From Paracoccus fistulariae (GTDB taxonomy: Bacteria > Pseudomonadota > Alphaproteobacteria > Rhodobacterales > Rhodobacteraceae), in contig NZ_CP067136.1 in the NCBI RefSeq assembly GCF_028553785.1, positions 1,701,001-1,765,000 of the forward strand: a stretch of DNA of 64,000 bases. The letters run 5' to 3'. Positions 4,244 to 62,217 of the stretch are shown piece after piece. Position numbers and translations under genes: made by a program. Numbering within the stretch: the first letter of the stretch is position 1; each line of letters starts with the position of its first letter. The notes under the pieces were generated by a model, which did not search any database, had not been told where the DNA came from, and was given only the letters and a program-made list of their open reading frames with translations.

Positions 4244-4244
4244 G

Positions 4245-6428: not shown

Positions 6429-6443
6429 GAAAGAGATCAGAAC

Positions 6444-7951: not shown

Positions 7952-8394
7952 CCCGGTCGCAAACCGATGGGGCTCCGGACCGCATCATCGCCACCGCGCG
8001 CGGCTGGCTTGGAACGCCCTATCACGATCAGGCGAGCCTCCGGGGCGTCGGATGCGATTGCCTCGGGCTGGCGCGCGGCGTCTGGCGCGAGGTCGTGGGC
8101 GACGAGCCTTTTCCGATCCCGCCCTATAGCCGCGATTGGGGCGAGACGGGCACCCGCGAAGTCTTGGCCGAGGGCGCGCGGCGGATGATGATCGAGTTAT
8201 CCGTCGCGGATGCCGGGCAGGGTGCACTGGTCCTCTTCCGCATGAGAACGGATGCCATCGCCAAGCACGTCGGAATTCTCACCGCGCCCGACCGTTTCAT
8301 CCACGCCTATGAGCGGCTTGGTGTGATCGAAGAACCTCTGACGCCTTCTTGGCGCCGCCGCATCGCTTTTGCCTTCCTCTTCCCCAGCATTTGA
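7948..8394 (+). CDS. NlpC/P60 tail-associated peptidase (GTA gp14-like)
   Basis: A 148-residue protein starting at a GTG that overlaps the previous stop (GTGA), the same junction as in prophage 2. The NlpC/P60 core is visible: GTPYHDQAS, GCDCLGL with the catalytic Cys near residue 38, and IAKHVGIL with the catalytic His near 106. Such tail peptidases cleave peptidoglycan peptides locally during DNA entry. It lies between the DUF2163 and hub genes, as in the gene transfer agent cluster. Confidence 0.8.
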   Translation: MTRSQTDGAPDRIIATARGWLGTPYHDQASLRGVGCDCLGLARGVWREVVGDEPFPIPPYSRDWGETGTREVLAEGARRMMIELSVADAGQGALVLFRMRTDAIAKHVGILTAPDRFIHAYERLGVIEEPLTPSWRRRIAFAFLFPSI

Positions 8395-8403
8395 GACTTT
8401 TTC

Positions 8404-11400
8404 ATGGCAACATTGGTATTGGCCTCGGTCGGCGCTACGATTGGCGGCGGCTTCGGCGGCGCGATCCTCGGATTTTCCGGTGCTGCCATCGGCGGCATGA
8501 TCGGCTCCACCATAGGCGCGGCCGTGGACAGCTGGATCGTCTCCTCGCTGGCCCCGGCCCAACGAATCGAAGGCGCGCGGCTCGACAATCTGCGCATCAC
8601 CGCCTCGACCGAGGGCGCAGTGATCCCGCGCATCTTCGGCCGCATGCGCATGGGCGGGAATATCGTCTGGGCCACGGATTTCCGCGAGGAGACCCGCACC
8701 AGCCGTCAGGGCGGCGGCAAGGGTGGCGGACCGAAGGTCGAGACCACGGAATATCTCTATTATGCATCCTTCGCGGTCGCCTTATGTGAAGGCGAGATTA
8801 CCGGCATCGGGCGGATCTGGGCCGATGGCAAGCCGCTCGACACCTCGGGACTTACCTGGCGCTGGTACCCAGGCAGCGAGACGCAACAGCCCGATCCATT
8901 CATCGCCGCCACGATGGGCCCAGAGGCCACGCCCGCATATCGCGGCACCGCCTATGTCGTCTTCGAAGATCTGCCGCTGAACGATTACGGCAACCGCCTG
9001 CCGCAGCTGAGCTTCGAGGTCTTCCGGCCGCTGGCCGATCCGGATACCGCCGAGGGGCTGACCCGTGCCGTGACGCTGATCCCGGCCTCGGGCGAGTTCA
9101 CCTATGCCACCGAGCCGGTGCGCAAGACCACGGGCGCCAAAACCAATGTCTTCGGCCACAGTACCGGCGGCACGACCTCTACCGAGAACCTGAACGCCAT
9201 GCCCGGCAGCCCGGACATGATCGTGGCGCTGGACCGGCTGCAGGCCATGGCGCCGAAGGTCGAAAGCGTCAGTCTGGTCGTGGCCTGGTTCGGCGATGAT
9301 CTGCGCTGCAGCCATTGCGCCATCCGGCCCGGCGTCGAGGTCGCCGAGAAGTTGAGCAGCCCCTGGACATGGTCCGTGAATGGCGTCAGCCGGGCCGATG
9401 CCCATCTCGTCAGCCGCGATGGTCAGGATCGTCCCGTCTATGGCGGCACGCCGGCGGATTTCGCGGTGGTGCAGGCAATTCGGGAGATGAAGGCGCGCGG
9501 GCTGCGGGTGACCTTCTATCCCTTCATCCTGATGGATATCCCGCCGGGCAACACTCTGCCGGACCCCTATTCGGACAACGCCGCCGGGACGGGTCAGCCC
9601 GCATTCCCCTGGCGTGGACGGATCACCTGTTCGCCCGCCGCCGGTCAGGCAGGCAGCGCCGACAAGACGGCGACGGCCGGAGATCAGGTTGATGCCTTCT
9701 TCGGCAGTGCCAGCGCGGGCGACTTTACCATTACCGGTGATGATGTCCGATGGACAGGCGACCCGAGCGACCATGGTCTGCGGCGCATGGTGCTGCATTA
9801 CGCCCATCTCTGCGCGGTGGCGGGCGGGGTCGATGCCTTCCTGATCGGTTCAGAGATGCGTGGACTGACCACGATCCGTTCGGAATTGAACAGCTATCCG
9901 GCCGTCGCTGCCTTCCAGGCGCTGGCCGCTGATGTCTGCGCCATCCTCGGGCCGGGCCCGAAGATCAGCTACGCCGCCGATTGGTCGGAATATTTCGGGC
10001 ATCAGCCGGGCGACGGCAGCGGGGATGTCCATTTCCATCTGGACCCGCTCTGGGCCGACCAGAACGTCGATTTCATCGGCATCGACAATTACCTGCCGCT
10101 CTCCGACTGGCGCGACGGCTTCGATCATCTGGACGCCCAAGCTGGCTGGCCTGCCATTCATGACCGGACCTATCTGCAGTCCAATATCGCGGGCGGCGAA
10201 GGGTTCGATTGGTTCTATGCCTCCGAGGCCGACCGCGCGGCGCAGGTCCGCACCCCGATCACCGATGGTGCCCACGGAAAGCCATGGGTCTTCCGGCCCA
10301 AAGATCTGCGCTCATGGTGGTCGAACCGGCATTTCGACCGGCCGGGCGGCGTCGAGGCCGCGACACCGACGCCGTGGGTGCCGCAGTCAAAGCCGATCCG
10401 CTTCACCGAACTCGGCTGCCCGGCCATCGACCGCGGCACCAACCAGCCGAATGTCTTCTACGATCCGAAGTCGTCGGAGAGCTTCGCGCCCTATTTCTCG
10501 CGCGGCTGGCGCGACGATGCCATCCAGCGCGCCTATCTGGAGGCGTCCTATCTCCATTGGGGCAAACCAGCGAACAACCCGGTCTCCGCGATCACCGGCC
10601 AGCGCATGGTCGAGGTCTCGGAATGCGCGGCATGGACCTGGGATGCCCGCCCCTATCCCTTCTTTCCGGCCCTCAGCGACGTCTGGACCGATGGCGCCAA
10701 TTGGCGGCTAGGGCACTGGCTGACCGGGCGGCTGGGCGCGGTCTCGCTCGCGGCCCTCGTCCGCCATCTCTGCGGGCGCGCCGGACTGCCGGAAAGCCGC
10801 ATCGATGTCTCCGGCCTCTGGGGCGCGGCCGAGGGCTACGCCATCACAGCCCTCGAAAGCCCCCGCGCCTCTATCACCACGCTGGCGCGGCACTTCGGGT
10901 TTGACGCGGTCGAGAGCGAGGGCGTCATCCGATTTGTGATGCGCGGCCGGGCACCGGTTGCCACCATCGCCCATGACGATCTGGCCGCGGGTAATTCGGA
11001 CGGCGAACCCATCGAGCTAACTCGCGCCCAAGAGACGGAGCTGCCACAGGCGCTGAAGTGGCAGGTGGCCCGGGCCGACGAGGATTACGATGCCGCATTG
11101 GTGGAAGCCGCGCGCATCACCGTGGACACCAGCCGCATCGCCTCGGAGAGTTTTCCGATGGCCGTGCCGCCGGAAGAGGCCGAACGCCGCTGCCGCCGGG
11201 CATTGCAGGAGGCTTGGGCAGGCCGCGAAAGCGCGGTGTTTCGCCTGCCGCCCTCACGGCTGGCGCTGGATCCGGCGGATATCATCGCGCTGGACCATGA
11301 CGGGCGCCAGCAGCAGTTCCGCCTGACCGCGATTGCCGATGCCGAAGCGCGCGGCATCGAGGCGGTGCGGCAGGACCGCGAGGCCTATGACCTGCCGCCC

Positions 11401-12402
11401 GGCGCCGAGCGCCCTGCCACCCTGCCCCGCGCGGTGACCTTCGGTCCGCCGGAAGTCATCCTGCTCGACCTACCTCAGCTCCGAGATGATGTTCCGGCCC
11501 ATCAGCCGCTGATCGCCGCCACCGCAAAACCCTGGCCCGGCGCGCTGGCCGTGTATCGCAGCCCCGGCGAAGACGGGTTCGATCTGGTGACGACGGTGCG
11601 CCGTCGGGCCAATCTCGGACGCCTTGCGTCGGACCTCTGGCCTGGGCCCACGTCGCGGGTCGATCTCGGCAATGTCCTGATCCTCGATCTGATGAGCGGC
11701 CAGCTGGACAGCGTCAGCGATCTGGCCCTCTTTGGCGGTGCTAATGCGCTGGCTGTGGAAGCCGCGCCGGGACGCTGGGAAATCGTCCAGGCGGGCCATG
11801 CCGAGCTGATCGCGCTGGGGCGCTATCGCCTGACCCGGCTGCTGCGCGGCCAGCGCGGCACCGAACAGGCCATAGGCAATCCCACCCCGGCCGGAGCGCG
11901 GGTCGTGCTGCTGAACGAAGCGCTGACTCCGCTGCCGATCCCGGAAGCCGATCTCGGCATCCCCTTCAACTGGCGCATCGGTCCGGCCCGCCACCCGGTC
12001 AGCAGCGACACCTTCGCTGCCATCAGTTTCACGGCCGAGGGCGCTGGGCTGCGGCCGTTCTCGCCGGTTCAGGTTGCCCAGCCATGGCGGCGCCCACATG
12101 TGCCAGGCGATCTGACGCTCCGCTGGACGCGCCGGTGTCGTGATCTCGCCGCCGACAGCTGGCAGGGCATGGAGGTGCCGATGGCCGAAGAACAGCAAAG
12201 CTACGAGGTCCGGATCATGGACGGTGCGGCCGTGAAGCGGATCCTGACCAGCAATGCGCCGTCGGTCGTCTACAGCGCCGCGCAACAGACCGCCGATTGG
12301 GGCGCGTTGCTGACACCGGGTGGCAGTCTGACGATCCGCATCTGTCAGCTCTCGACCCGCATCGGGCGCGGCACCGTCCGAACGACCACCCTTTATCTCT
12401 GA
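8404..12402 (+). CDS. Tail hub / host specificity megaprotein (GTA gp15-like)
   Basis: A 1332-residue protein. The first ~45 residues are Gly/Ala-rich and hydrophobic (GGGFGGAILGFSGAAIGGMIG), followed by long domains with blocks typical of the GTA TIM-barrel-like and phage-tail-3 families: ADWSEYFGHQPGDGSGDV, FIGIDNYLPLSDWRDG, TELGCPAIDRGTNQPN, and SECAAWTWDARPYPFF. It forms the baseplate hub that meets the host surface and may have glycosidase-like domains. Prophage 2 has a homologue of 1316 residues. Confidence 0.85.
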   Translation: MATLVLASVGATIGGGFGGAILGFSGAAIGGMIGSTIGAAVDSWIVSSLAPAQRIEGARLDNLRITASTEGAVIPRIFGRMRMGGNIVWATDFREETRTSRQGGGKGGGPKVETTEYLYYASFAVALCEGEITGIGRIWADGKPLDTSGLTWRWYPGSETQQPDPFIAATMGPEATPAYRGTAYVVFEDLPLNDYGNRLPQLSFEVFRPLADPDTAEGLTRAVTLIPASGEFTYATEPVRKTTGAKTNVFGHSTGGTTSTENLNAMPGSPDMIVALDRLQAMAPKVESVSLVVAWFGDDLRCSHCAIRPGVEVAEKLSSPWTWSVNGVSRADAHLVSRDGQDRPVYGGTPADFAVVQAIREMKARGLRVTFYPFILMDIPPGNTLPDPYSDNAAGTGQPAFPWRGRITCSPAAGQAGSADKTATAGDQVDAFFGSASAGDFTITGDDVRWTGDPSDHGLRRMVLHYAHLCAVAGGVDAFLIGSEMRGLTTIRSELNSYPAVAAFQALAADVCAILGPGPKISYAADWSEYFGHQPGDGSGDVHFHLDPLWADQNVDFIGIDNYLPLSDWRDGFDHLDAQAGWPAIHDRTYLQSNIAGGEGFDWFYASEADRAAQVRTPITDGAHGKPWVFRPKDLRSWWSNRHFDRPGGVEAATPTPWVPQSKPIRFTELGCPAIDRGTNQPNVFYDPKSSESFAPYFSRGWRDDAIQRAYLEASYLHWGKPANNPVSAITGQRMVEVSECAAWTWDARPYPFFPALSDVWTDGANWRLGHWLTGRLGAVSLAALVRHLCGRAGLPESRIDVSGLWGAAEGYAITALESPRASITTLARHFGFDAVESEGVIRFVMRGRAPVATIAHDDLAAGNSDGEPIELTRAQETELPQALKWQVARADEDYDAALVEAARITVDTSRIASESFPMAVPPEEAERRCRRALQEAWAGRESAVFRLPPSRLALDPADIIALDHDGRQQQFRLTAIADAEARGIEAVRQDREAYDLPPGAERPATLPRAVTFGPPEVILLDLPQLRDDVPAHQPLIAATAKPWPGALAVYRSPGEDGFDLVTTVRRRANLGRLASDLWPGPTSRVDLGNVLILDLMSGQLDSVSDLALFGGANALAVEAAPGRWEIVQAGHAELIALGRYRLTRLLRGQRGTEQAIGNPTPAGARVVLLNEALTPLPIPEADLGIPFNWRIGPARHPVSSDTFAAISFTAEGAGLRPFSPVQVAQPWRRPHVPGDLTLRWTRRCRDLAADSWQGMEVPMAEEQQSYEVRIMDGAAVKRILTSNAPSVVYSAAQQTADWGALLTPGGSLTIRICQLSTRIGRGTVRTTTLYL

Positions 12403-12420
12403 AGACCGGGAATCCAAAAA

Positions 12421-13497
12421 ATGTCCGACAGCACGACAAACCTGCTGCTGCCATATCTGATGGCGGCGCAGGCGCAGAAACACGTCACCCATAACGAGGC
12501 CCTGCGCCTGCTCGACGGGCTGGTGCAGCTCTCGGTCAAAAGCCAGGGTCTGACCGCGCCACCGGCAAGCCCCGCCGATGGCGACCGTTATATCGTCGCC
12601 TCGGGCGCGACCGGCGGCTGGGCGGGCTGGGATCTGAACGTGGCCCTCTGGACCGAGGGTGCCTGGCTGCGCCTGCCGCCGCGCGCGGGCTGGCGGGCAT
12701 GGGTCGAGGATGAGGCGGTCCTGCTGGTCCGGCATGGCGCGGGCTGGCAGCCGATGGTCCCGACCGCCTTCGACGATCTGACACGGCTTGGTATTGGCAT
12801 GGAAGCCAGCGCGGGTTCCCCCTTTTCGGCCAAGCTGAACAGCGCCCTCTGGACAGCCCTCTATGCGGCCGATGGCGGCAGCGGCGATCTGACCCAGACC
12901 CTGAACCGGGAAACGGGTACGGACGATGCCGGGCTGATCCTGCAGACCGGGTTTTCCACCCGGGCGCTGATCGGGATGTTCGGATCGGACAAGCTGCGCA
13001 TCGCGGTTTCGCCCGACGGGTCCAGTTTCCGCGATGCGCTGGGCGTCGATCCGGCGACGGGCATTGCCGACCAGCCGAACCTGCCGCGCTTCAAGGCTTA
13101 TACGAATTACGACAATTACGTCGGCACCGATACCTGGACCACCCTCGGCATCAATGTCGCCGAATACAATGATCAGGGCTGCTTTGACGCGGGCACCAAC
13201 CGCTTCGTGGCGCCGGTCGCGGGAACCTATCTCCTCGGCGCCTCGCTGTTCTTCAAGATCAATGCCAGCGGCAACGCCCGGATGCGCGGGCGGCTGGTCC
13301 TGAACGGATCCACGGAAATCCGGGGCTCGTTCGGCGAGGTTTCCGGTGCGCATGTATCCGAGGCGACCGCCCTCTGGCTGCAGACCATGGTCGCGCTGGA
13401 CGCGGGCGATACCGTGACGCTGCAGGGCAGCTTTCGCGCGGCGGATGGGTATTTCGCCGCCAATCACACCACTTTCTGGGGAGCGAAGATCGGATGA
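12421..13497 (+). CDS. DUF2793 tail tip protein with C1q-like C-terminus
   Basis: A 358-residue protein. The N-terminal ~120 residues (LLLPYLMAAQAQKHVTHNE, then WxGWDxNVA) are the DUF2793 domain and match the prophage 2 protein. The C-terminal ~140 residues have a jelly-roll pattern of C1q/TNF type (FVAPVAGTYLLGASLFFK, then LWLQTMVALDAGDTVTLQG). This part is absent from the prophage 2 protein, which has another C-terminus. The arrangement suggests a conserved attachment domain carrying an exchangeable receptor-binding domain. Confidence 0.75.
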   Translation: MSDSTTNLLLPYLMAAQAQKHVTHNEALRLLDGLVQLSVKSQGLTAPPASPADGDRYIVASGATGGWAGWDLNVALWTEGAWLRLPPRAGWRAWVEDEAVLLVRHGAGWQPMVPTAFDDLTRLGIGMEASAGSPFSAKLNSALWTALYAADGGSGDLTQTLNRETGTDDAGLILQTGFSTRALIGMFGSDKLRIAVSPDGSSFRDALGVDPATGIADQPNLPRFKAYTNYDNYVGTDTWTTLGINVAEYNDQGCFDAGTNRFVAPVAGTYLLGASLFFKINASGNARMRGRLVLNGSTEIRGSFGEVSGAHVSEATALWLQTMVALDAGDTVTLQGSFRAADGYFAANHTTFWGAKIG

Positions 13498-14971: not shown

Positions 14972-15946
14972 TCAGGACGCCTCAGAAGGGGCATCGACCA
15001 GCGCCAATGCGCCATCCGGCAGCGGGCGTTGCAGCTTGCTGGCGATTTCGATCGGTGCCGAAAGCCAGGTCTCCCAATCCCGGGGATCGGTCAGGATGAC
15101 CGGCATGGCTTTCGGATGCACCGATTCCACCTCGGCATTGGGCGCGCAGGTCAGAAATGCGTAGAGATCGTCGGTGGTTTCGCCATCCTTCACCTTCCGA
15201 ACCGAAGTCCAGCCCCGGACCTCGATCCCGGCGAAGAACATCGGCGTCTCTGCATCGGCCGGGGCAAACCACTGATTGCCGCCCTTGATCGGTTCGGCGA
15301 AGGCCGTGACCGGCACCAGGCAGCGATGCGCCGGGCCCAACCACCGCCGCCAATGCGGCGACGTCAGGTTGCGGACATTGGTGACGCCCGGATCCCGTTG
15401 GGTCTTCAAAACCGAGGGCGGCGATGGCATCCCCCACCGCGCCTTCACCAATTCCAGCGAAGCGCCATCATGGCGGATGATCGGAGCCAGCTGATCCGGA
15501 TAGACCTTGCCCGGTGCGACATTGCCCGCGCGGTCGGTCATGGTCAGACCCTTGAAAAGCTGGCGCATCGCCTCCTGCGTGGTGGTCTGATTGTAAAGGT
15601 TGCACACGGTATCGTCGTCCTCGGAACGGCCAAAGGGCAGATAGGGTGAACTGTAGCTCGGCAGGCATGTTCTGTCAGCCAGTTCCAGATCCGGAAAGGC
15701 GGTCAGGCAGGCGCTGGCCGCATCCGGCTCACGGAAGTAAAGCGCGATCCGGTCCCGCGTGCCGCCGCGCCCACCGCCATGCCAGGCATAGTTGCCTCGG
15801 CCGATCCGCGTCGCCAGCCACTCATGCAGCGCGTCGGACCGTCGGCCAAAGCCCATCTCCGGCACGCAAATCAGCACCCGGACCGGGAAGGCCGAATCGT
15901 CTATCTTGGCTTGAGGTGTGCTGCGGCGCGTCATGGACAAGAACAA
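14972..15946 (-). CDS. SRAP (HMCES/YedK-like) protein with long N-terminal extension, copy 1
   Basis: The 324-residue frame contains a SRAP domain, which in YedK/HMCES binds abasic sites in single-stranded DNA and crosslinks to them through the Cys that follows the start Met. Here the VCNLYNQTT block begins at residue 114, and its V codon is GTG (15607-15605) with GAGGA about 10 bases upstream. An internal start at that GTG would give a normal 211-residue SRAP with Cys2 exposed. The 113-residue extension is conserved in copy 2, so it may be a real second product. The SRAP active-site Glu/His region (RCLVPVTAFAEP) is present. Confidence 0.8.
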   Translation of the reverse strand: MFLSMTRRSTPQAKIDDSAFPVRVLICVPEMGFGRRSDALHEWLATRIGRGNYAWHGGGRGGTRDRIALYFREPDAASACLTAFPDLELADRTCLPSYSSPYLPFGRSEDDDTVCNLYNQTTTQEAMRQLFKGLTMTDRAGNVAPGKVYPDQLAPIIRHDGASLELVKARWGMPSPPSVLKTQRDPGVTNVRNLTSPHWRRWLGPAHRCLVPVTAFAEPIKGGNQWFAPADAETPMFFAGIEVRGWTSVRKVKDGETTDDLYAFLTCAPNAEVESVHPKAMPVILTDPRDWETWLSAPIEIASKLQRPLPDGALALVDAPSEAS

Positions 15947-16046: not shown

Positions 16047-18149
16047 ATGCGATTTTCTTCGCAAACTGCGTCTCAGACCGAAATTAAGAGTGCTTCTGTG
16101 CCAAAGCTGATTCCGAATATTGAAAATCGCGTCCGCAAGCTCCCCAAGCCCGCCACATACTCCCAAGCACTGCAGCCGTTGTTCGAGGCGGTCAGCAATG
16201 CGCTTTACGCTATCGAGGATCGTTCGGCGCTCGGCGCGACCATGGCTGGTGATGTCCGGATCAGCATCACGAACCTCACCGACGCCGGCAAATTCCGTGT
16301 TGAGATCGCCGACAACGGGATTGGGCTCGATGCTGACCGGTATGAAGCATTCCAGACGATTGATACCGATTTCAAGCGCGCACGAGGGGGCAAGGGAGTA
16401 GGTCGGCTGTTCTGGCTCGATGCGTTTGAACGAATCCACGTCGAAAGCTTATTCAACGAGGAAGGCGGCATAAAGCGGCGCTGCTTCGCATTCACGCTGC
16501 GAAATGATGAACAAATTGTCGAAGAAGATCTTCCGAATGGCTACGTCGGCAGGCAAGAAGTTGGCACGACGATCATATGCGAAGGTCTGCGCGGCACGAG
16601 CTACCAGAAGGCATTCCCAAAACAAAAGGCCACCTTCCTTCGATACTTCAGTGCCCATTTTATCGCTGATTTCTTGGTCGGTAATGGTGCGAGCGTCGAG
16701 GTAAATCTCGACGGTGAGCCGACAAAGTATCCTGAGGCGGTAGCTGACCTTGTGATCGGTCGAGACCTAGAGACCGGCGATTTCGACATTAGCGATTACG
16801 GAACATTTTCGGTGAAAGGCTTTGCGTGCGATAAAGAAGCAAGCACTGGTCTTGATGGCAACCACCAGCTCCATTTGCTTGCCAACGGAAGAACCGTGGA
16901 GTCTCGAAAAGTCGATGGGCTCATTGGACTGTCGACGATTGCGGCCGGAGAACGCGACGACCTTTATTTTCATGGATGCGTTTCAAGCGAGTATTTAGAT
17001 GAAAGGGTCAACGAAGGCAGGACCGCGTTCAATCTGCCGGAAGACATTCTAAAGGAAATTTCACGCAAATGCGTAGAGCAGGTCCGAGAGACCGCCCTTG
17101 CCGACCAGATGGTGAGCTACAATGCAACGCGTCGAAGCAACTATGATGAGTTCGTTTCTCGGCATCCGATTTACGGCTTCGACGATCCCGACGTCCAGTT
17201 GTCACGTGTGCCTTTTAGCGCCCAGACGCCCGAAGAGTTTGCAACGGGTCTCGTCAAATATCAGATACGCCGCGATGAAGAACGCCAATCGACGATGGAG
17301 AACGTGATCGAGCTTCTGGCCAAGGGCGATTCTGTTCCGGAAAGCTTCGCCGAACGGCTGCAGACCGCAGTTCGGGAAGTCCAATCGTCAGAGCAGCTTG
17401 CGCTTGCGCAACATGTTGTCCGTAGGAAATTGGTTCTCGATCTGATGGGGAAGCTTCTGACGCGGGTCCGTGAAAGGGCAGACAAGCAGGATGATTTCCA
17501 TTTGGAGCAAACACTCCATTCATTTATCGTCCCAATGCACGTTGCGGGCCATGACGCGGCGGAGAAGCGTTCGCGCGCACATGATCTCTGGATCCTGGAT
17601 GAGCGGTTGGCATTCACGCGGGCCTTCTCTTCAGACAAACGCTTCGACGCGCTATTAAAAGATTCTGAAAATGCAGAACGCTCGGATTTGATCGTCTGGG
17701 ATTTCGCGAGTGGCTTGGGCGTGGTTGACCCTCTGCGAGACGGCGAAAGAGTGGATACAAGTAAACCACTCGAGAAGGTCATGATCGTCGAGTTCAAAAA
17801 ACCCGGGCGCAAGCACTATGGTCCTGAAGATCAAATTCACTTTCAGATCACCAAATATATCGATGAGCTGCGGGGCGGCGAAATCGAGGGCTTTGAGCGG
17901 CAGAGAATTCGGATCGCACAAGACTGTGTTTTTTACTGTTATGTCGTCGCCGACATCGAAGGTGATTTAAAACGGCAACTATCAACTTGGTCGAAGTCCG
18001 CAAATGGCCAAGGCCGGTTCATGCCGCTTCAAGGTGACGTAAACGGATCAATCGAGGTAATTCAATGGCAAGACTTGGTGAACGACGCATGGGCGAGAAA
18101 CGAAGCAACCCTTTACGCGGCAAAGCTTCAAAGGGGGCGCCCGGGCTAA
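16047..18149 (+). CDS. GHKL ATPase with C-terminal nuclease-like region
   Basis: A 700-residue protein. Residues ~45-120 show the GHKL (Hsp90/MutL/histidine-kinase) ATP fold: LFEAVSNALYAIED (N box), ADNGIGL (G1) and RGGKGVGRLFW (G2). Around residue 582 the sequence MIVEFKKPGR, in a strand-like setting after LIVWDF, resembles the E-x-K part of a PD-(D/E)xK nuclease core. The middle is helical. No kinase H box or response-regulator partner is present. It heads a three-gene group, is more AT-rich than the phage genes and sits next to an attachment site; an anti-phage role is an inference. GTG at 16099 is an alternative start. Confidence 0.65.
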   Translation: MRFSSQTASQTEIKSASVPKLIPNIENRVRKLPKPATYSQALQPLFEAVSNALYAIEDRSALGATMAGDVRISITNLTDAGKFRVEIADNGIGLDADRYEAFQTIDTDFKRARGGKGVGRLFWLDAFERIHVESLFNEEGGIKRRCFAFTLRNDEQIVEEDLPNGYVGRQEVGTTIICEGLRGTSYQKAFPKQKATFLRYFSAHFIADFLVGNGASVEVNLDGEPTKYPEAVADLVIGRDLETGDFDISDYGTFSVKGFACDKEASTGLDGNHQLHLLANGRTVESRKVDGLIGLSTIAAGERDDLYFHGCVSSEYLDERVNEGRTAFNLPEDILKEISRKCVEQVRETALADQMVSYNATRRSNYDEFVSRHPIYGFDDPDVQLSRVPFSAQTPEEFATGLVKYQIRRDEERQSTMENVIELLAKGDSVPESFAERLQTAVREVQSSEQLALAQHVVRRKLVLDLMGKLLTRVRERADKQDDFHLEQTLHSFIVPMHVAGHDAAEKRSRAHDLWILDERLAFTRAFSSDKRFDALLKDSENAERSDLIVWDFASGLGVVDPLRDGERVDTSKPLEKVMIVEFKKPGRKHYGPEDQIHFQITKYIDELRGGEIEGFERQRIRIAQDCVFYCYVVADIEGDLKRQLSTWSKSANGQGRFMPLQGDVNGSIEVIQWQDLVNDAWARNEATLYAAKLQRGRPG

Positions 18150-18214
18150 ATACCTGGGACATCTCGTGTTCACAAAAAAGCCATACTCATCCAAAAACGT
18201 GAGGGAATGCTGTA

Positions 18215-19081
18215 TTGGTCAAATCCACAAATCAGCCTACCGAATTTACGGACAACACACATCGAAGCCTAAAGCGTCTCGTCGTAGTTGACGCTTGGTT
18301 CCGGCGTTCGCGCGACAATCCAAGCCGCTACACGCTGCACGCGGACATAAGTTTTAATATTGAGCGCCTCAGCGGTGGAAGTGCTTCAGCCGTGACATTC
18401 AAAGTCGCCGTTAAGCAGTGCGAGGTTGTTTTTATCCGCCCTCTTGATGGGTTCTCCGTGGATCGCTCTAGTGTTCGCCGCCAAAAGCCGATGGGTCGAC
18501 AGAATATTGAGCAGAAAAAGCAGAAGAAGGCTTCAGCCGGCTTTCACAGTAAACTCGGCCTGTCGCGCCGTCCGACTTTAGAGGCCGGAGCTGAGGCCGA
18601 TGTCGGCGTGAGTTCGGAGCATTCCGTCGACTCTAAGCAATCCAAAAGCTTCTACAACGAGCAGTTTACTCGCTCACGCGAAGGCCATGATGCCTGGACC
18701 GTCAATGGAGAAGAGCTTGGAGGCCACCTCACAGGACCTGTCTTTGATGTCGAAGCAGAGCCGAGGCTGACGTTGATAGATATACGGGAAGAGGCGCGGC
18801 GCCAACGCGATGAAGCCCACCAGTTGACGCCCGTCACGCGCATTGAGATTAGATGTCTGCGCGAGGACATCGATATTCATGATGTTAAGTTGAAGGATGA
18901 AGCACGGGCAGAGAGCTTTTTCACGAAGCCAGGAAGCAAGGAGCGAATGCAGATTGCGCGAGGTGTTTTGCGCGAAGCACTCATAGCGGAAGGCCTCTCT
19001 GTTGGCCAACTTCTCGATGACCCTTACGCCGAAATGACGATATGCGATGCGACAATCCCCATCCTTGATCAAAGCTCTTGA
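18215..19081 (+). CDS. Unknown 288-aa protein of GHKL-linked trio
   Basis: I do not recognise this protein. It starts at a TTG with a GAGGG ribosome binding sequence 9 bases upstream. The first ~85 residues look beta-rich (VVDAWFRR, YTLHADISFNIERL, VTFKVAVKQCEVVFI); the middle is Lys/Ser-rich and probably disordered; the end is helical and acidic. It overlaps the next gene by 35 bp, which suggests coupled translation and joint function with the GHKL protein upstream and the helical protein downstream. Confidence 0.55.
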   Translation: MVKSTNQPTEFTDNTHRSLKRLVVVDAWFRRSRDNPSRYTLHADISFNIERLSGGSASAVTFKVAVKQCEVVFIRPLDGFSVDRSSVRRQKPMGRQNIEQKKQKKASAGFHSKLGLSRRPTLEAGAEADVGVSSEHSVDSKQSKSFYNEQFTRSREGHDAWTVNGEELGGHLTGPVFDVEAEPRLTLIDIREEARRQRDEAHQLTPVTRIEIRCLREDIDIHDVKLKDEARAESFFTKPGSKERMQIARGVLREALIAEGLSVGQLLDDPYAEMTICDATIPILDQSS

Positions 19082-20315
19082 AGCAGCCGCAGAGGCCCTA
19101 AATTCGCAGAGCAACGACTTGAAGGAGCTTGCAGACAGGGCGGCTGCCACATCCGGCATTCCAGCGGACAGAATCCTCATGAACATAGATCTGACCGGAA
19201 TAAACCTTACTGGAAAGCCCATTGACTATCTTACGGATAGGGGTGCACTTTATCTGGCCGCGACGCTGACTGACGAACAGCGCGCCAAATTTCACAAAGG
19301 CGAGCGCGAAGGTAGAGCACGTCAAACGCGCAAACAGATCCGTTCGATCCGTGTCCAGATGATTTCAGACTTTGTCGATACCTTTGAGGAGCACTCCGTT
19401 CCTCCCTTGGACGAAAAGCACGAGCGCCTCCTCGATGCCACACTGTTGCGGCATATCCTACTTGACCCTATTGGCTCAGACTACCCTTCTGACAAACCGC
19501 TTGATGAGCACTATACTCAACGTGTCCTCGTAAGACTTGTCCCATTCGCACAGAAAAGAAATCTTGATTTCTTCAGAGAGCTTTTTCGGCTTCTTGGTGA
19601 TCTCCACTGCAAAGTTGGAGAGACTGTGGTCGGTTTGGTTTTCGACGACTATTTCGCACGCTTTCAAGATGCCGTTGTAGATCTGATCAGACAGCTTCAG
19701 CCGAATGGTTTGCTCGACGCCAAATGGATCACAAGAGAGGGTCGCGACCGACATTGGCTGAACGTAGGAAAAGGAAAGTATAACGACCCCCAAATTTTGC
19801 CTATCGTATTCACCAAGCGTGCCCAGGAAATAAATGATTTCAGAACTGTCCACCCAGCGGCAATCGAATTCGCCCTAGACCAGATCCAAAATCCCCTCCA
19901 GCGCTTGAGCTTTCTAGAAGAAGTCGCTTTTGAGTGCTCAGGCGATGAGGCTGAGCGCATCGCCCTTCGAATAGTCAACGCTGACTGGCCTGCATCTCAA
20001 ACTCGAAAAGTCCTGGAGGCTGATGTGCCTCCTAGGGTCCGAGGCGCTCTGTTTCGTCAGATATTGAAGCAGGGAAATGTGGAGCGCACCCTAGAGATGC
20101 TCAGATGGCTAGACAACAATCGCGGAGCCGTTGGGGCGCTCTCACTCGATGATGCCCTCGCTACGATTAATAGCTTTGTCGCCCTCTTCGACTTCGCATC
20201 GGACGTGCACATGGAGCTAAGGACAAATCAAAAAGAGGTTCTGCGCCGGGCTCTCGACCGTACCGCGACATCTAGCGCTCAAAGAGAAAAGGTTCGAAGA
20301 TTGCTACCCAACTAA
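19047..20315 (+). CDS. Unknown 422-aa helical protein of GHKL-linked trio
   Basis: I do not recognise this protein. It is mostly helical, with an N-terminal stretch resembling pentapeptide-like residues (MNIDLTGINLTGKPIDYL) followed by charged helices, and a C-terminal half that could be an array of short helical repeats. No catalytic motif or membrane segment stands out. The ATG lies inside the 3' end of the preceding gene. It is the last gene before the tRNA fragment at 20439, so the trio fills the slot at the right end of prophage 1. Confidence 0.55.
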   Translation: MRQSPSLIKALEAAAEALNSQSNDLKELADRAAATSGIPADRILMNIDLTGINLTGKPIDYLTDRGALYLAATLTDEQRAKFHKGEREGRARQTRKQIRSIRVQMISDFVDTFEEHSVPPLDEKHERLLDATLLRHILLDPIGSDYPSDKPLDEHYTQRVLVRLVPFAQKRNLDFFRELFRLLGDLHCKVGETVVGLVFDDYFARFQDAVVDLIRQLQPNGLLDAKWITREGRDRHWLNVGKGKYNDPQILPIVFTKRAQEINDFRTVHPAAIEFALDQIQNPLQRLSFLEEVAFECSGDEAERIALRIVNADWPASQTRKVLEADVPPRVRGALFRQILKQGNVERTLEMLRWLDNNRGAVGALSLDDALATINSFVALFDFASDVHMELRTNQKEVLRRALDRTATSSAQREKVRRLLPN

Positions 20316-20353: not shown

Positions 20354-20371
20354 GTTGATGTGGCGTTGATG
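20354..20371. repeat. Paired integrase arm-like repeat, junction left side
   Basis: GTTGATG occurs twice with 11-bp spacing (20354 and 20365), 85 bp from the 3' end of the tRNA fragment. The same design with GTTGAGT lies 86 bp from the intact tRNA-fMet at the other end. These fit arm-type binding sites of a tyrosine recombinase. Confidence 0.5.
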
Positions 20372-20438
20372 TAAAGTCGCGCTTGTGATGCCTGACTGTT
20401 TCGGTCGGAATCCAAGCGTTTGATTTATTTATAGATTT

Positions 20439-20483
20439 TGGTTGCGGGGACAGGATTTGAACCTGTGACCTTCAGGTTATGAG
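20439..20483 (-). repeat. tRNA-fMet 3' fragment; attachment site between prophages
   Basis: Read on the minus strand, this is the 3' part of an initiator tRNA: the anticodon loop with CAT, a T arm with GGTTCAAATCC, an acceptor strand CCCCGCA and CCA. The 5' half is missing. It shares TGGTTGCGGGG and a 17-bp core (20467-20483) with the intact tRNA-fMet at 62141-62217, in the same orientation, but its T stem differs. This is the expected left attachment site of prophage 2 and right end of prophage 1. Confidence 0.75.
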
Positions 20484-20625
20484 GCTATAGACCCGACCGA
20501 TACCAGATATAACGAAATCAATGCCTTACCCGACATGCCTTTGATATGTTTGGCTATAGTCCCCACATCCACCGCCGCCCATCAGCATTCGCCGCGTCTC
20601 AAGGTCACTCGAAGGGCGTTCACCT

Positions 20626-20643
20626 GTTGAGTAGGCGTTGAGT
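20626..20643. repeat. Paired integrase arm-like repeat, left end of prophage 2
   Basis: GTTGAGT occurs twice with 11-bp spacing (20626 and 20637), separated by AGGC. The pair at 62055-62072 is the same apart from one base (AGGT). This one lies about 143 bp inside the left attachment core. The rest of 20316-20792 has no gene I can support. Confidence 0.5.
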
Positions 20644-20792: not shown

Positions 20793-23543
20793 GTGCCGCA
20801 CGATCTGAACCAGAACCCCGAGCAGGTCGCCCGCGATCGGATAGATGAGCGCCTGAATGCTGCGGGGTGGATCGTCCAGGACAAAGCCAAGCTGGATTTC
20901 AACGCCGGTCCCGGAATCGCCGTGAGAGAATATCAAACAGATGTTGGCCCCGCTGACTATGTTCTGTTCGCAGACCGACAGGCGGTTGGGGTCGTCGAGG
21001 CGAAGCCAGATAACTGGGGGGTCCACCTCACGACGGTCGAGGAGCAATCGGCAGGGTACGCCAGCGCGAAGCTGAAATGGGTTTCAAATGCAGAGCCGCT
21101 GCCTTTTCTCTACGAAAGTACGGGCAAGATCACCCGTTTCACCAATGCGCGAGACCCCTCGCCACGATCCCGCGAGGTGTTCACGTTTCATCGGCCGGAG
21201 ACCTTGAAGGCTTGGGCGCAGTCACCGAAATCCCTACGGGCCGGCATTGCCGCCCTACCCGCACTCGACCCCGACGGGCTGCGTGACTGCCAGATCACTG
21301 CAATTACGAAGCTCGAGGAATCACTGAAAGCTGACAGGCCCCGCGCGCTGGTGCAGATGGCCACAGGTTCGGGTAAGACCTTCACTGCAATTACACAGGT
21401 TTACCGTCTTCTGAAACATGCAGGCGCGCGCCGCATCCTGTTCCTCGTCGACACCAAGAACCTGGGCGAACAGGCTGAACAGGAATTTATGGCCTTCGTC
21501 CCCAATGACGACAATCGCAAGTTCACCGAACTCTACAACGTCCAGCGCCTGACGTCGCCATCGATGGCGAATGACACGCAGGTGGTGATTTCTACCATCC
21601 AGCGCATGTACGCGACGCTGAAGGGAGAACCGCTGGACGAAGCCGCTGAAGAAGAGAACCCGGCCGAGCAGACCTTTCGTCGCAAAGATCCCCTGCCTGT
21701 CGTCTATAACCCCAAACTGCCGCCCGAATACTTCGATGTCGTCGTCATCGATGAATGCCACCGTTCGATCTACAATCTGTGGCGGCAGGTCATCGAGTAT
21801 TTCGATGCCTATCTGATCGGGCTGACCGCGACGCCGGACAACCGGACCTTCGGCTTCTTCCAGAAGAACGTCGTCAGCGAGTACACCCATGAAAAGGCCG
21901 TTGCCGACAAGGTGAACGTCGGCAACGAGGTATATCTGATCGAAACGGAAATCATGCAGAAGGGCCAGACGCTGAAACCCAAGCAGCTGGTCCAGAAGCG
22001 TGAACGTGATACCCGGGCCAAGCGCTGGGCAGTTCAGGATGACGAGGAAGCATATGCCGCTACGCAACTGGATCGCTCGGTCGTCAATCCCGACCAGATC
22101 CGCACCGTAATCCGTGCCTTCCGCGACAACTGGCCCGATATCTTTCCAGGCCGAAAGGAACTGCCTAAAACACTGATCTTTGCCAAGACAGACAGCCATG
22201 CGGACGACATCATCCAGACCGTCCGGCAGGAGTTCGGCGAGGGCAATGACTTCTGTCGCAAGATCACCAACGGCGCCAAGAACCCGAAATCGTCGCTGAC
22301 AGCCTTTCGCAACGAATACTATCCGCGCATCGCGGTAACCGTAGACATGATCGCCACCGGCACCGATGTGAAACCGTTGGAATGCCTGATCTTCATGCGC
22401 GACGTGAAATCGAAGAACTATTTCGAGCAGATGAAGGGCCGCGGCACCCGGGTTGTCAAACCGGACGATCTGAAGAAGGTCTCGCCCTCGGCGCAGGCCA
22501 AAACGCATTATGTCATCGTCGATGCCGTCGGTGTCACCAAGTCTTTGAAGACCGCTAGCCGCCCGCTCGACAGCAAGCCATCGATCCCATTCAAGGATCT
22601 GGCGATGGGCCTGATGATGGGCGACCGGTCAGAGGAAACGGTCAGCTCTCTCGCATCGCGCCTTTCGCGGCTGGACAACATGCTGGGCGATACTGATCAA
22701 GCCAAGATCGCGGAACAGGCGGGCAAGCCGCTCTCTGCCATCGTTCGTGACCTTTTCGACGCCATCGATGCTGACAAGGTCGAGGCAGATGCGAAGGCCG
22801 CAGGTCATCCAGAGCCTGACGATGCCGCGATGCAAGCAGCGCGCGAGGAGCGGATCAAAAACGCCGCAAATGTCTTCACCGGCCCGCTGATCAACATGAT
22901 CGACACCATCCGGCGCGACAATGAACAGACGATTGACCACGACAACCTCGACACGCTGACCCGTGCCGAGTGGGCGGGCGATGTCGAGGAAAACGCCAAG
23001 AAGATCGCGCAGGAGTTCGAGGTTTACCTGAACGAGAACCGCGATGAGATCGAGGCGCTGTCGATCTATTTCAACACACCCGCCCGCCGGTCCGAGGTCA
23101 CCTTTGCCATGGTCAAGGATGTGCTGAGACGGCTGACGGCCGATCAGCCCCGCCTTGCGCCGCTGACCGTCTGGCGCGCCTATGCGCATTTGGATAACTA
23201 CAAGGGCGAAAGCCCGGCTGGCGATCTGACGGCGCTGGTGGCGTTGATCCGGCGGGTCTGCGGGCTGGATGCGACCTTGACGCGCCACTCCGAACGGGTG
23301 CGCCGAAACTTTCAGAACTGGATCCTGAAGCGCCATTCGGGCGCGGGCGAGAAGTTCACCGAGGCGCAGATGGAATGGCTGCGCATGATCCGCGACCACC
23401 TTGCGACTTCGTTCATCATCGAACGCGACGATCTGGACATGTCGCCCTTTGACGGCAAGGGCGGATTGGGGCAGATGTACGCGCTGTTCGGAGATAATAC
23501 GGAGAACATCATGACCGAGATGAACGAGGCCCTTTCGGCATGA
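20793..23543 (+). CDS. hsdR: Type I restriction enzyme, R subunit
   Basis: A 916-residue protein. The N-terminal nuclease core shows Asp in GPADYVLF (~55) and VVEAKP (Glu ~69, Lys ~71). The translocase follows with Walker A MATGSGKTF (~190-197), DECH box (~320-323), LTATPD, and a second helicase lobe with TLIFAKT and QMKGRGTRV. It cuts unmodified DNA after ATP-driven translocation when in complex with the M and S subunits encoded downstream. The frame begins at a GTG without a strong ribosome binding site. It overlaps hsdS by 4 bp. Confidence 0.9.
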   Translation: MPHDLNQNPEQVARDRIDERLNAAGWIVQDKAKLDFNAGPGIAVREYQTDVGPADYVLFADRQAVGVVEAKPDNWGVHLTTVEEQSAGYASAKLKWVSNAEPLPFLYESTGKITRFTNARDPSPRSREVFTFHRPETLKAWAQSPKSLRAGIAALPALDPDGLRDCQITAITKLEESLKADRPRALVQMATGSGKTFTAITQVYRLLKHAGARRILFLVDTKNLGEQAEQEFMAFVPNDDNRKFTELYNVQRLTSPSMANDTQVVISTIQRMYATLKGEPLDEAAEEENPAEQTFRRKDPLPVVYNPKLPPEYFDVVVIDECHRSIYNLWRQVIEYFDAYLIGLTATPDNRTFGFFQKNVVSEYTHEKAVADKVNVGNEVYLIETEIMQKGQTLKPKQLVQKRERDTRAKRWAVQDDEEAYAATQLDRSVVNPDQIRTVIRAFRDNWPDIFPGRKELPKTLIFAKTDSHADDIIQTVRQEFGEGNDFCRKITNGAKNPKSSLTAFRNEYYPRIAVTVDMIATGTDVKPLECLIFMRDVKSKNYFEQMKGRGTRVVKPDDLKKVSPSAQAKTHYVIVDAVGVTKSLKTASRPLDSKPSIPFKDLAMGLMMGDRSEETVSSLASRLSRLDNMLGDTDQAKIAEQAGKPLSAIVRDLFDAIDADKVEADAKAAGHPEPDDAAMQAAREERIKNAANVFTGPLINMIDTIRRDNEQTIDHDNLDTLTRAEWAGDVEENAKKIAQEFEVYLNENRDEIEALSIYFNTPARRSEVTFAMVKDVLRRLTADQPRLAPLTVWRAYAHLDNYKGESPAGDLTALVALIRRVCGLDATLTRHSERVRRNFQNWILKRHSGAGEKFTEAQMEWLRMIRDHLATSFIIERDDLDMSPFDGKGGLGQMYALFGDNTENIMTEMNEALSA

Positions 23544-25108
23544 CGGATCTTCCGCCCGGTTGGGCTGCGACCAAAATTACTGAAGTGGTCGAACTTCAAG
23601 CAAACGGGAATCCTTTTCAGCAAGGGTGGAGTCCGCAGTGCGAAAGCCGACCGGCAGCCGAAGGTGAATGGGGCGTGTTAAAAACAACGGCCATTCAGCA
23701 TGGCGAGTTTTGGGCCCACGAGAACAAGGCACTACCGAGCAAGCTATCCCCTAGGCCTCAGATTGAAGTTAGGCAGGGTGACGTTTTGATGACGTGCGCC
23801 GGCCCGCGCAATCGCTGCGGGGTCGCTTGTTTGGTACAGTCAACACGTACCAAGCTTATGATGTCCGGAAAAATGTATCGCTTCCGCCCCCACTCCGAGG
23901 CACTGGATGCGAAATTTCTTTCAAGTTTTATACGACTCCACGAAACCCAGCTTCGCATCGACGCTATGAAGAGCGGCATCAGCGATAGTGGCTTGAATTT
24001 AACGCACGGCCGCTTTGGCGAGCTACCGATTGTGATACCGCCATTAAATGAACAACGGCGCATCGTGGAGAAGATCGAGGCGCTGTTTGACGAGATCGAC
24101 AAGGGGGTCGAGAGCCTTACGGCGGCGAAGGCCGCGCTTGGGCTCTATCGCCAATCCCTGCTGAAAGCGGCCTTCGACGGCCGCCTCACCGCCGACTGGC
24201 GCGCCCAGAACCCCGACAAACTGGAAGACCCCCAAACCCTCCTCGCCCGCATCCGCAAGGAACGCGAGGCGCGTTATAAAGCTGATCTTGCTGGATGGCG
24301 AGAAGCCGTGGTCAATTGGAGAGAGGGTGGCGAGAAAGGCAAGAAACCCCCGAAGCCTAAACCGCAAACTGAATTTAAGTACCAAGCGACAGAAAGCTCA
24401 TCGCCGTGGCCGGTGACAAGCGTAGGAGCGATCCTAAGCGCGCCATTGATTAACGGTCGCTCCGTCAAGGACAAGTCCGGTGGCTTTCCAGTGCTGCGCC
24501 TCACAGCTTTGAAAAATGGAAAAATAGTCCTCTCGGAGCAAAAAGAAGGCAACTGGACACGGGATGAAGCCTTTCCGTTCCTCGTTGAGTACGACGATAT
24601 CTTCGTTGCTCGCGGCAATGGAAGTAAGAAACTGGTCGGGATTGGCGGGCGAGTGTTGGATCAACCAATGCCCGTGGCTTTCCCTGATACGATGATCCGT
24701 GTGCGCCTTGATGCTTCCGTGGTTCGACCCGACTTTTTTTTGCTCTGCTGGAACTCATGGTCGGTTCGCCGCCAAATTGAGGACGCCGCGCGTACGACGG
24801 CCGGTATTTACAAGATCAATCAAGATCATGTCTCTGGCTTCACGTTGCCCTTACCCTGCCTGACCGAGCAGGCCGAAATCGTTCGCATCCTCGACACACG
24901 CCTCGACGCGGCTGATCGTCTCGCGACCGAGATCGACGCCGCCCTCTCCCGCGCCGACGCCCTGCGCCAGTCCATCCTGAAACGCGCCTTCTCCGGCCAG
25001 CTTGTCCCGCAGGATCCGACCGACGAACCGGCCTCGGCCCTGCTGGCACGCATCCAGCAGGAACGCGCGGCAACCTCTAAGAAGGGCAAGCGCAAGGTGT
25101 CGGCGTGA
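23540..25108 (+). CDS. hsdS: Type I restriction-modification specificity subunit
   Basis: A 522-residue protein with two target-recognition domains, each followed by a conserved helical spacer. The first spacer is visible as IPPLNEQRRIVEKIEALFDEID then SLLKAAFDGRLTADWR (~residues 165-220), the second as CLTEQAEIVRILDTRLDAAD then SILKRAFSGQLVPQDP near the end. The two recognition domains are more AT-rich than the spacers, the usual sign of domain exchange. Target site cannot be read from sequence. Confidence 0.9.
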   Translation: MTDLPPGWAATKITEVVELQANGNPFQQGWSPQCESRPAAEGEWGVLKTTAIQHGEFWAHENKALPSKLSPRPQIEVRQGDVLMTCAGPRNRCGVACLVQSTRTKLMMSGKMYRFRPHSEALDAKFLSSFIRLHETQLRIDAMKSGISDSGLNLTHGRFGELPIVIPPLNEQRRIVEKIEALFDEIDKGVESLTAAKAALGLYRQSLLKAAFDGRLTADWRAQNPDKLEDPQTLLARIRKEREARYKADLAGWREAVVNWREGGEKGKKPPKPKPQTEFKYQATESSSPWPVTSVGAILSAPLINGRSVKDKSGGFPVLRLTALKNGKIVLSEQKEGNWTRDEAFPFLVEYDDIFVARGNGSKKLVGIGGRVLDQPMPVAFPDTMIRVRLDASVVRPDFFLLCWNSWSVRRQIEDAARTTAGIYKINQDHVSGFTLPLPCLTEQAEIVRILDTRLDAADRLATEIDAALSRADALRQSILKRAFSGQLVPQDPTDEPASALLARIQQERAATSKKGKRKVSA

Positions 25109-25557
25109 ACAATTTCCAGCGAACCGGCGCGATCAGCAACGCCCATGTCGGCCGCGATTTCGAAGCTCGGGCACGGGCCATTCTTAAGTCGCGGGGCATC
25201 TCTCTTGAACTGAACCACAAGGTGCCCTGCGGCCTTGGCAATCTGCGCAAGAACCACGCCTTCGATCTCGGATCGGACGATCCGCCCGTGATCGTGGAGT
25301 GCAAGTGCCAGACCTGGACTGTTGGTGGCAACATCCCCAGCGCCAAGATGAAGAACTGGGCCGAAGCCATGTTCTATTTCCACATGGCGCCCCCGAATTA
25401 TCGCAAGATCTTCTTTGCCGAGCGCAGCTTGCGCAGCGGGCGCGATGAATCCTTGCTGGCCTATTTTCGTCGCACACAAGCACATATGATCCCTGCCGAT
25501 GTCGAGTTTTGGGAACTGGACCGCGACAGCGACGCCCTCATCATTCACGAGGACTAA
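25105..25557 (+). CDS. Small PD-(D/E)xK nuclease-like protein in hsd operon
   Basis: A 150-residue protein starting at a GTG that overlaps the hsdS stop. It shows an N-terminal helix with VGRDFEARARAILKSRG and a core with FDLGSDDPPVIVECKCQTW, which fits the D...E-x-K pattern of PD-(D/E)xK nucleases. It ends one base before hsdM, so the order is R, S, this gene, M. It is not one of the standard type I subunits. It could be an accessory nuclease or a structural relative without activity. Confidence 0.6.
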   Translation: MNNFQRTGAISNAHVGRDFEARARAILKSRGISLELNHKVPCGLGNLRKNHAFDLGSDDPPVIVECKCQTWTVGGNIPSAKMKNWAEAMFYFHMAPPNYRKIFFAERSLRSGRDESLLAYFRRTQAHMIPADVEFWELDRDSDALIIHED

Positions 25558-25558
25558 G

Positions 25559-34273: not shown

Positions 34274-34292
34274 GGCCGCAACAAGACCACCC

Positions 34293-62140: not shown

Positions 62141-62217
<77 letters not shown>

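Follow-up and report, generated by a model that had tools for sequence, protein, structure and literature searches.

A predicted GHKL ATPase-nuclease of a known type and a rare gene pair lie side by side in a variable prophage slot of Paracoccus fistulariae

Three adjoining genes of Paracoccus fistulariae raise the question of whether they form a single undescribed defence system, as the first-pass annotation had proposed, or separate modules that share one site. The window, the whole stretch of DNA analysed here, comprises 64,000 nucleotides of contig NZ_CP067136.1 (positions 1,701,001 to 1,765,000, forward strand). ORF A (16047..18149, 700 aa, ATG start), ORF B (18215..19081, 288 aa, TTG start) and ORF C (19047..20315, 422 aa, ATG start) are open frames on its plus strand, and the families of ORFs B and C are rare. 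The gap from ORF A to ORF B is 65 bp, and the end of ORF B shares 35 bp with the beginning of ORF C, so the three frames, the TTG start and the overlap were as first described. The trio had also been called AT-rich, and this was confirmed by a GC content of 0.51-0.54 over 16-20 kb (ORFs A-C) versus 0.63-0.70 between 2 and 16 kb; values of 0.58-0.59 were recorded across the restriction genes (21-27 kb). A promoter and terminator scan gave results no better than shuffles.

The three genes occupy a cargo slot, variable in content, within a prophage that has integrated at tRNA-Met. Its inner edge is marked by an SRAP (SOS response-associated peptidase) gene (14972..15946, minus strand), of which a 92% copy lies at 27060-28034. 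The outer edge is marked by an integrase-arm-like repeat, GTTGATGTGGCGTTGATGT (20354..20372, plus strand); a second copy of its first 16 bases lies beyond the window, at coordinate -34127 in window numbering. An attachment-site copy consisting of the 3' half of tRNA-Met follows (20438..20485, minus strand), and together with the arm-like repeats it substantiated the earlier placement of the slot beside a prophage attachment site. The target of the tandem insertions is the complete tRNA-Met gene (62141..62217, minus strand), and a further arm-like repeat, GTTGAGTAGGCGTTGAGT (20626..20643, plus strand; partner at 62055), was assigned to the second prophage. Allowing up to 16 mismatches in 48 positions, a scripted search for the tRNA-Met half returned only 20438 and 62140. 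Where the first element ends on the far left is uncertain; a pattern search for tRNA-Met at that end returned none, and a 22-base exact repeat and a tRNA-Met-like stretch were seen there by eye.

The slot content differed in all four related prophage copies that were read. Three prophage copies of the same genus, 88-96% identical to the window in the tail protein and 95-97% identical in SRAP, carried other genes between the SRAP gene and the tRNA-Met half, some of them restriction- or nuclease-like. The slot cargo of these relatives, which matched solved OLD-family, thymidylate-synthase-like and restriction-methylase proteins, includes an OLD-like ATPase, a restriction-methylase-like protein and a CMP-hydroxymethylase-like protein. 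The interval from the SRAP gene to the tRNA-Met half is thus a place to seek further defence genes.

ORF A is organised as a GHKL ATPase, an S5/transducer-like middle domain, a helical linker and a predicted PD-(D/E)xK-type nuclease domain. Pfam HATPase_c matched residues 45-119 (16179..16403, plus strand) above its cut-off, with an E of 1.4e-6. In an alignment of 19 family proteins, with identity down to 21%, the GHKL residues E47, N51, D89-x-G91-x-G93 and G114/G117/G119 were invariant in every protein. These results indicated that the GHKL ATP site had been recognised correctly. The model of the ATPase and middle region (residues 20-369; 16104..17153, plus strand) superposed on the ATPase and middle domains of Hsp90, TRAP1, MORC2, SMCHD1 and topoisomerase VI; the structure-search matches were confined to these residues, and a sequence search returned no persuasive solved structure for ORF A.

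In the predicted nuclease domain (residues 480-695; 17484..18131, plus strand), E487, D547, E582, K584 and D636 were invariant in 19/19 proteins, and Q600 and Y604 were nearly invariant. The C-terminal EFKKP motif (residues 582-586) had been likened to that of PD-(D/E)xK nucleases, and the invariance of E582, K584 and P586 in the alignment argues for that reading. The model of the nuclease core is of low quality (pLDDT <50 at 494-569), so that the fold is seen only in part. Weak matches to the restriction-nuclease family HSDR_N came from two of the 19 proteins, at E 0.0018 for the better one. An Mrr- or HsdR-type nuclease was considered and rejected, as the ORF A profile reached only 0.1 and 0.0 against single sequences, which are weak controls for that reason.

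This architecture has been described before. The paraMORC3 family of Iyer, Abhiman and Aravind (2008, PMC2292703) joins GHKL and S5 domains to a C-terminal restriction-endonuclease-fold domain with E-D-ExK; it includes a stand-alone subset found mainly in proteobacteria and bacteroidetes, and the available part of that article presents it without a functional test. ORF A shares the GHKL domain with intact ATP-binding motifs, the S5/transducer-like middle and the C-terminal E-D-ExK, and its family shares the stand-alone trait, with neither B nor C at the 30 places counted. ORF A fits the stand-alone paraMORC3 family. It also resembles VcSduA (Shedu type I-D), a single gene of Vibrio cholerae VSP-II whose anti-phage activity was shown in 2025 and whose E27A and K557A mutants were inactive, according to the available text (PMC12137116): both join an N-terminal GHKL ATPase and a C-terminal PD-(D/E)xK-type nuclease in one gene. 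The Vibrio fluvialis homologue of ORF A carries E27 and K556, equivalent to E47 and K584 of ORF A; the Glu-Lys spacing is 530 residues in VcSduA, 529 in the homologue and 537 in ORF A, the register of VcSduA being taken from published residue numbers. ORF A is, however, only 27% identical to the Vibrio fluvialis homologue. In addition, the authors of VcSduA reported DUF4263 in it (PMC12137116), whereas ORF A falls below the Pfam SduA_C (DUF4263) model, which matched none of the 19 family proteins at E <= 1 and nothing in the genome of ORF A itself. Collectively, the sequence comparisons suggested that ORF A probably works like VcSduA. The description of ORF A as part of something undescribed could not be upheld, given paraMORC3 in 2008 and VcSduA in 2025; ORF A is a further member of an already known GHKL-nuclease type, and the part of the locus with no known counterpart is B-C.

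The possible kinship with Shedu nucleases was quantified with hhalign. The ORF A nuclease scored 97.6 against five SduA_C-related nucleases (P 1.5e-11; the highest of 40 column shuffles reached 0.1), 54.9 against three accepted Shedu proteins (P 1.8e-5; the highest of 20 shuffles reached 0.3), and 11.3 against two accepted Shedu proteins. The five-template set includes two GHKL-fused proteins with partial SduA_C matches below the Pfam cut-off (L069 and L070), and these two together gave 92.3; shuffles reached at most 0.7 throughout, and single template sequences gave 0.2 to 48. On these profiles the link appears strong with the five templates and moderate with accepted Shedu proteins alone, and is thus template-dependent. 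The GHKL part of the SduA_C-fused L070 matched that of ORF A (94), but that of L069 did not (0.4). The nuclease domain of classical Shedu (SduA) seems similar to that of ORF A by profile comparison, although a direct Pfam SduA_C match is absent from ORF A. Classical Shedu proteins are not known to carry a GHKL ATPase. A single search with ORF A returned 451 matches at E <= 1e-3, ORF A itself included, and none of the 19 diverse members fit the Pfam Shedu model, which points to a wider spread of such GHKL-nucleases than that model picks up.

We consider it likely that the tRNA-Met prophage slot holds two independent modules, and that ORF A, a GHKL-nuclease of paraMORC3 type encoded by one gene, works like VcSduA. 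We infer that ATP binding would bring its ATPase and middle domain together as a clamping dimer, as in Hsp90, MutL and MORC proteins, and that ORF A may sense a feature of invading phage DNA or of its replication. Such sensing would license the PD-(D/E)xK domain (E487, D547, E582, K584) to cut phage DNA, and the phage would be restricted directly by this cutting. ORFs B and C would form a separate, translationally coupled pair of a beta-domain protein and a partner, probably helical, whose place is taken by other proteins elsewhere in the family. The would-be new system is thereby recast as a known type (A) and an unknown pair (B-C), which points bench work to the right genes.

The ORF A family keeps no fixed partner. 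Matches were found in 55 plasmid records, and the named neighbours varied among the 12 annotated plasmid stretches that were read, near-identical copies excepted. In Vibrio fluvialis, a classical Shedu gene lies directly upstream of the ORF A-family gene. PADLOC gave no convincing model for ORF A (best PbeC, E 0.0097), and its TmtA, MzaB, DUF3644, PDC-M02B and PtuB models were set aside as weak matches to one or two of the 19 members (best E 0.0028). As prophage cargo, ORF A could instead serve the prophage itself, in DNA repair, packaging or superinfection exclusion, and not general host defence; a distant relative adjoins the integrase of phage vB_RanS_PJN03, and superinfection exclusion is also a form of defence. 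This explanation is improbable in view of the plasmid-borne family members and of the other genes that fill the slot in related prophages, which indicate that prophages of this type can do without ORF A.

The possibility that A, B and C constitute one undescribed three-gene defence system, with A as effector and B and C as sensor and regulator, has in its favour their common strand, close spacing, B/C overlap and shared low GC. The co-occurrence of the three genes was the check put forward for it, and within the reach of the search the trio was not found together elsewhere. Neither B nor C occurred at any of 30 other ORF A-family places (intact frames outside this genome, with flanks of about 1 to 10 kb), and only one of seven B places had A, namely the window itself. 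The 30 places include near-identical copies (L011, L044, L054, L055, L066) and short contigs or flanks (L011, L052, L058, L059). Broken, split or partial A places (L007/L050, L014, L016, L017/L060, L018, L022, L038/L061, L051) were left out of the count and likewise had no B or C; L102, equal in score to L101, was scanned outside the count. One of the other B genomes (G262) had no A match anywhere. By eye, no contig was apparently common to the B or C matches and the 119 listed of 450 non-self A matches, whereas B and C matches apparently share five contigs, judged from the longest contig per cluster only. A and B-C are two independent accessory modules side by side, and a single three-gene system is very unlikely. 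Least probable of all is an auxiliary role of ORF A for the type I restriction system next to it, after the manner of MORC-like ATPases in some restriction operons: the restriction genes start nearby at 20793, one family member adjoins type I genes in Vibrio fluvialis (L045) and another lies near an N-6 methylase (L043), and paraMORCs were found within restriction operons (available text of PMC2292703), but the attachment-site copy and arm repeats between A-B-C and the restriction genes point to different inserted elements, and 10 of the 12 plasmid stretches had no restriction-modification gene by name.

The ORF B search returned 19 matches, ORF B itself included, and the ORF C search 13, one of them a 98% near-copy. 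Searches of Pfam, PADLOC, NCBIfam and PHROGs returned nothing for ORF B at E <= 1 (best E among its 19 family members in PHROGs 0.18), and ORF C had only sub-cut-off matches in the same four libraries (NCBIfam NF004799, E 0.0043; Pfam DUF6003, E 0.12). Pfam matches of the ORF C family to DUF4054 (E 0.00065, 3/13) and TRIP4_3rd (E 0.011, 4/13) were not taken as kinship. Sequence searches returned no solved structure for ORF B and none persuasive for ORF C; two viral-contig scans contained no relative of either, and plasmids contained none of ORF C. The predicted model of ORF B (mean pLDDT 66) appears beta-rich and ill-ordered at 91-144 (pLDDT <50), in agreement with the beta-rich protein with a disordered linker described at first. 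The pentapeptide-like segment attributed to ORF C was present as DLTGINLTG, but no member of its family matched a Pfam pentapeptide model. In Foldseek, ORF B weakly resembled pore-forming toxins of staphylococci, with leukocidins as the top matches, but a pore-forming toxin was rejected, as the best E was 1e-3 and TM 0.20-0.30, with an rmsd mostly around 20 for a query model of pLDDT 66. A viral structure library returned nothing for ORF B (best E 0.14).

B was followed by an overlapping partner gene at all seven B places. The partners were of the C type, a 636-aa pentapeptide-plus-helical protein or a TPR protein. Four other genomes that encode a C relative had the B-C pair but no A beside it, two of them covered for only 3.1 and 1.2 kb upstream, and B overlapped a different partner in two further genomes. 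Aligned with the 636-aa protein that partners a distant B, the N-terminus of ORF C scored 11.9, versus 8.6 for the best of 100 shuffles, with a probability of only 1.0; its C-terminus did not match that partner. Defence is the likeliest task of B-C because of the cargo slot, a judgement made from position only, and how the pair might work is likewise inferred. B may tentatively be placed at the centre of a two-gene defence system of Rhodobacterales that has not been described before, in which a beta-domain protein with a disordered linker would act as sensor or adaptor and be combined with a swappable partner in prophage and island cargo slots; we rate this reading as possible, with the odds against it. 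The neighbours at the other B places were mixed, comprising a DUF2726 gene (L033), T5orf172 and HNH genes (L035), a phage-like end seen by eye (L036) and metabolic genes (L083).

Three open frames, A (16047-18149, 700 aa), B (18215-19081, 288 aa, TTG start) and C (19047-20315, 422 aa), lie consecutively on the plus strand, with a 35-bp overlap between the last two. The region is AT-rich (GC 0.51-0.54). The genes agree with the first-pass annotation. Its proposal that the trio forms one defence system was not borne out. Profiles built for each of the three proteins were run over 84 loci and then over 30 more, and we considered the 30 intact A-family places outside the own genome (24 from the first 84 loci, and L109-L114). 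B and C were absent at all 30 of these places within flanks of about 1 to 10 kb, and A stood beside B at one of the seven B places, two of which are covered upstream for no more than 3.1 kb (L033) and 1.2 kb (L034).

A is thus solitary, and its named neighbours vary from place to place. In Vibrio fluvialis these were type I restriction genes and a classical Shedu gene; elsewhere an Abi-family gene (including L055, by Pfam), a TIR gene and an N-6 methylase were found. Integrases adjoined several A-family genes, one having a phage integrase. The distribution within the genus is patchy: 8 of 61 genomes, own included, encoded an A relative (E <= 1e-20), with 30-45% identity outside the own genome. 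Within the family, 78 of 394 genomes reached E <= 1e-3, in most cases over a short GHKL stretch, whereas in 10, own included, the alignment was nearly full-length (E <= 1e-40); within the class, 3/385 matched at E <= 1e-30, again counting the own genome. Remnants at L050 8179-8787 (C-terminal 202 aa, 61% identity) and L051 7754-7987 (57 residues, 82%), in two other genomes, are signs of gain and loss of the A family.

The trio had also been put forward as a candidate undescribed system, but A's half of it is of a known kind. Iyer and colleagues defined paraMORC3 by GHKL, S5 and, at the C-terminus, an endonuclease-fold domain bearing E-D-ExK; some members stand alone (PMC2292703). A shares the GHKL, the S5 and the stand-alone gene, and for the endonuclease-fold domain it agrees by the E-D-ExK motif only. 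VcSduA, which joins GHKL with PD-(D/E)xK, has been assigned to Shedu type I-D, compared to paraMORC3 and shown to protect both E. coli and V. cholerae; its activity is abolished by E27A and by K557A, and protection at all tested MOIs was read as direct restriction (PMC12137116). The Vibrio fluvialis A-family member L045, 27% identical to A, has the N-box glutamate at 27 and the ExK lysine at 556, compared with E27 and K557 in the published VcSduA numbering.

The Pfam Shedu domain SduA_C was matched by none of 19 A-family proteins at E <= 1. A profile comparison used a template of five SduA_C-related sequences: L067 and L068 (above the Pfam cut-off), L045 (annotated Shedu), and L069 and L070 (partial, below the cut-off). 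The profile of the A nuclease region matched it with a probability of 97.6 (P 1.5e-11), compared with 0.1 for the best of 40 column shuffles, 0.0 for the reversed template and <= 0.2 for B, C, Mrr, HsdR, HsdM and the integrase. It was observed that the score varies with the choice of template sequences: four-sequence sets gave 93.8 and 96.7, the two GHKL-fused sub-cut-off templates alone 92.3, the three accepted templates alone 54.9 (P 1.8e-5) and two of these three 11.3, with shuffles across the reduced comparisons at <= 0.7. Because of this dependence, homology of the A and Shedu nuclease domains is likely rather than certain, and we do not claim Shedu membership for A. We class A with the paraMORC3-type GHKL-nucleases, and it probably works like VcSduA. 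VcSduA and GHKL mechanics suggest, by analogy, that ATP would make a dimeric clamp close on DNA, or on a target bound to it, after which the C-terminal domain would cut; we consider it fairly likely that A acts against phage as a nuclease of this clamp-and-cut type. Two same-family genomes encode, at L069 1222-3264 and L070 1285-3036, proteins that are GHKL-like by eye with partial sub-cut-off SduA_C matches; these may form another GHKL-Shedu lineage, separate from that of A.

B and C are an uncharacterised pair that merits its own test. Database matches numbered 19 for B, itself included, and 13 for C, one a 98% near-copy. C occurred in 2 of 394 same-family genomes (own and G262), and the B profile matched in 4/390 genomes of the order. 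A genome-contig scan found C in Leisingera, Pseudooceanicola, Sagittula (the G262 locus, same sequence) and Fuscibacter, in all four with B upstream and overlapping by 35 to 47 bp by listed starts. Distant B relatives (L083, 29% identical; L084, 25%) are followed by different overlapping genes, not C: one partner, of 636 aa and overlapping by 7 bp, has a pentapeptide match that is short and below the cut-off, and the other is a TPR protein (4-bp overlap). B thus overlaps a downstream gene in 7/7 places (window, L033-L036, L083, L084). In the structure model of B (pLDDT 66) an ill-ordered stretch separates two beta regions, and structure searches with the model gave no credible match. B-C may be a separate defence unit, though this is less likely than not; otherwise the pair would serve an accessory prophage or island function.

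The contig measures 3.62 Mb of a 3.72-Mb assembly. Left of A-B-C lie prophage tail genes (within 2650-13497), a phage peptidase (13877) and, on the opposite strand, an SOS response-associated peptidase (SRAP) gene (14972-15946); to the right are a type I restriction system (20793-27034), a second SRAP gene (27060-28034, 92% identical to the first in DNA), and the integrase (28241) and terminase, portal and capsid genes (from 37439) of a second prophage. Each of the two tandem prophages has one of these SRAP copies at its cargo slot. A 150-aa frame between the hsdS-like and hsdM-like genes (25105-25557) matches nothing but phrog_7353 of PHROGs, and that weakly (E 2.7e-4). The second prophage also carries an Mrr-type restriction endonuclease gene (35668-36765) adjoining a ParB/N6-N4 methylase gene (34126-35559), and its matching right-end slot, ahead of its attachment site, holds 418-, 387- and 305-aa genes (58256-62042), none with a Pfam match at E <= 0.01.

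The position next to a prophage attachment site was confirmed by a tRNA-Met 3' half at 20438-20485, between C and the restriction genes. It differs from the complete tRNA-Met gene (62141-62217) at 7 of 48 bases, six of them in the T stem and read by eye as paired changes. Two kinds of integrase-arm-like double repeat flank the tRNA-Met copies: GTTGATGTGGCGTTGA at 20354 and again at -34127, left of the window, and GTTGAGTAGG(C/T)GTTGAGT at 20626 and 62055. The former lies within a 22-base exact repeat, the longest between the two flanks (next longest, 14 bases). A degenerate tRNA-Met-like stretch seen by eye adjoins the far-left copy; a scripted search tolerating 16/48 mismatches did not recover it. 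These features are best read as elements inserted in tandem at a single tRNA gene: A-B-C would be outer cargo of the first element, and the restriction system would belong to the second as its cargo. Support is good for the right-hand borders but not for the far-left one.

An SRAP relative at E <= 1e-100 was present in 18 of the 61 same-genus genomes, own included. Two of these genomes have matching prophage copies, at two places in G915 and one in G916, with SRAP 95-97% and tail protein 88-96% identical to those of the window. All three places show an arm-like repeat and a tRNA-Met half, and the interval from SRAP to that half holds different, AT-richer genes at each place, named here from matches to sequences of solved structures only. 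One (L106 219-6612) encodes an OLD-like ATPase of 605 aa, residues 9-75 of which match an OLD-family endonuclease (E 5.8e-7). Another (L107 6140-10180) encodes a CMP 5-hydroxymethylase/thymidylate-synthase-like protein (E 4e-42) and a neighbour with no match among solved structures. In the third (L108 3403-10095), a 1018-aa protein matches, from end to end, an adenine-specific methyltransferase (E 4e-286; 7lo5, the type IIG/IIL enzyme DrdV) and, over residues 188-1012, the restriction enzymes LlaBIII and LlaGI; it is accompanied by a 594-aa protein, without a match among solved structures, and a 319-aa protein. Counting the window, the four related prophage copies hold four different sets of slot contents.
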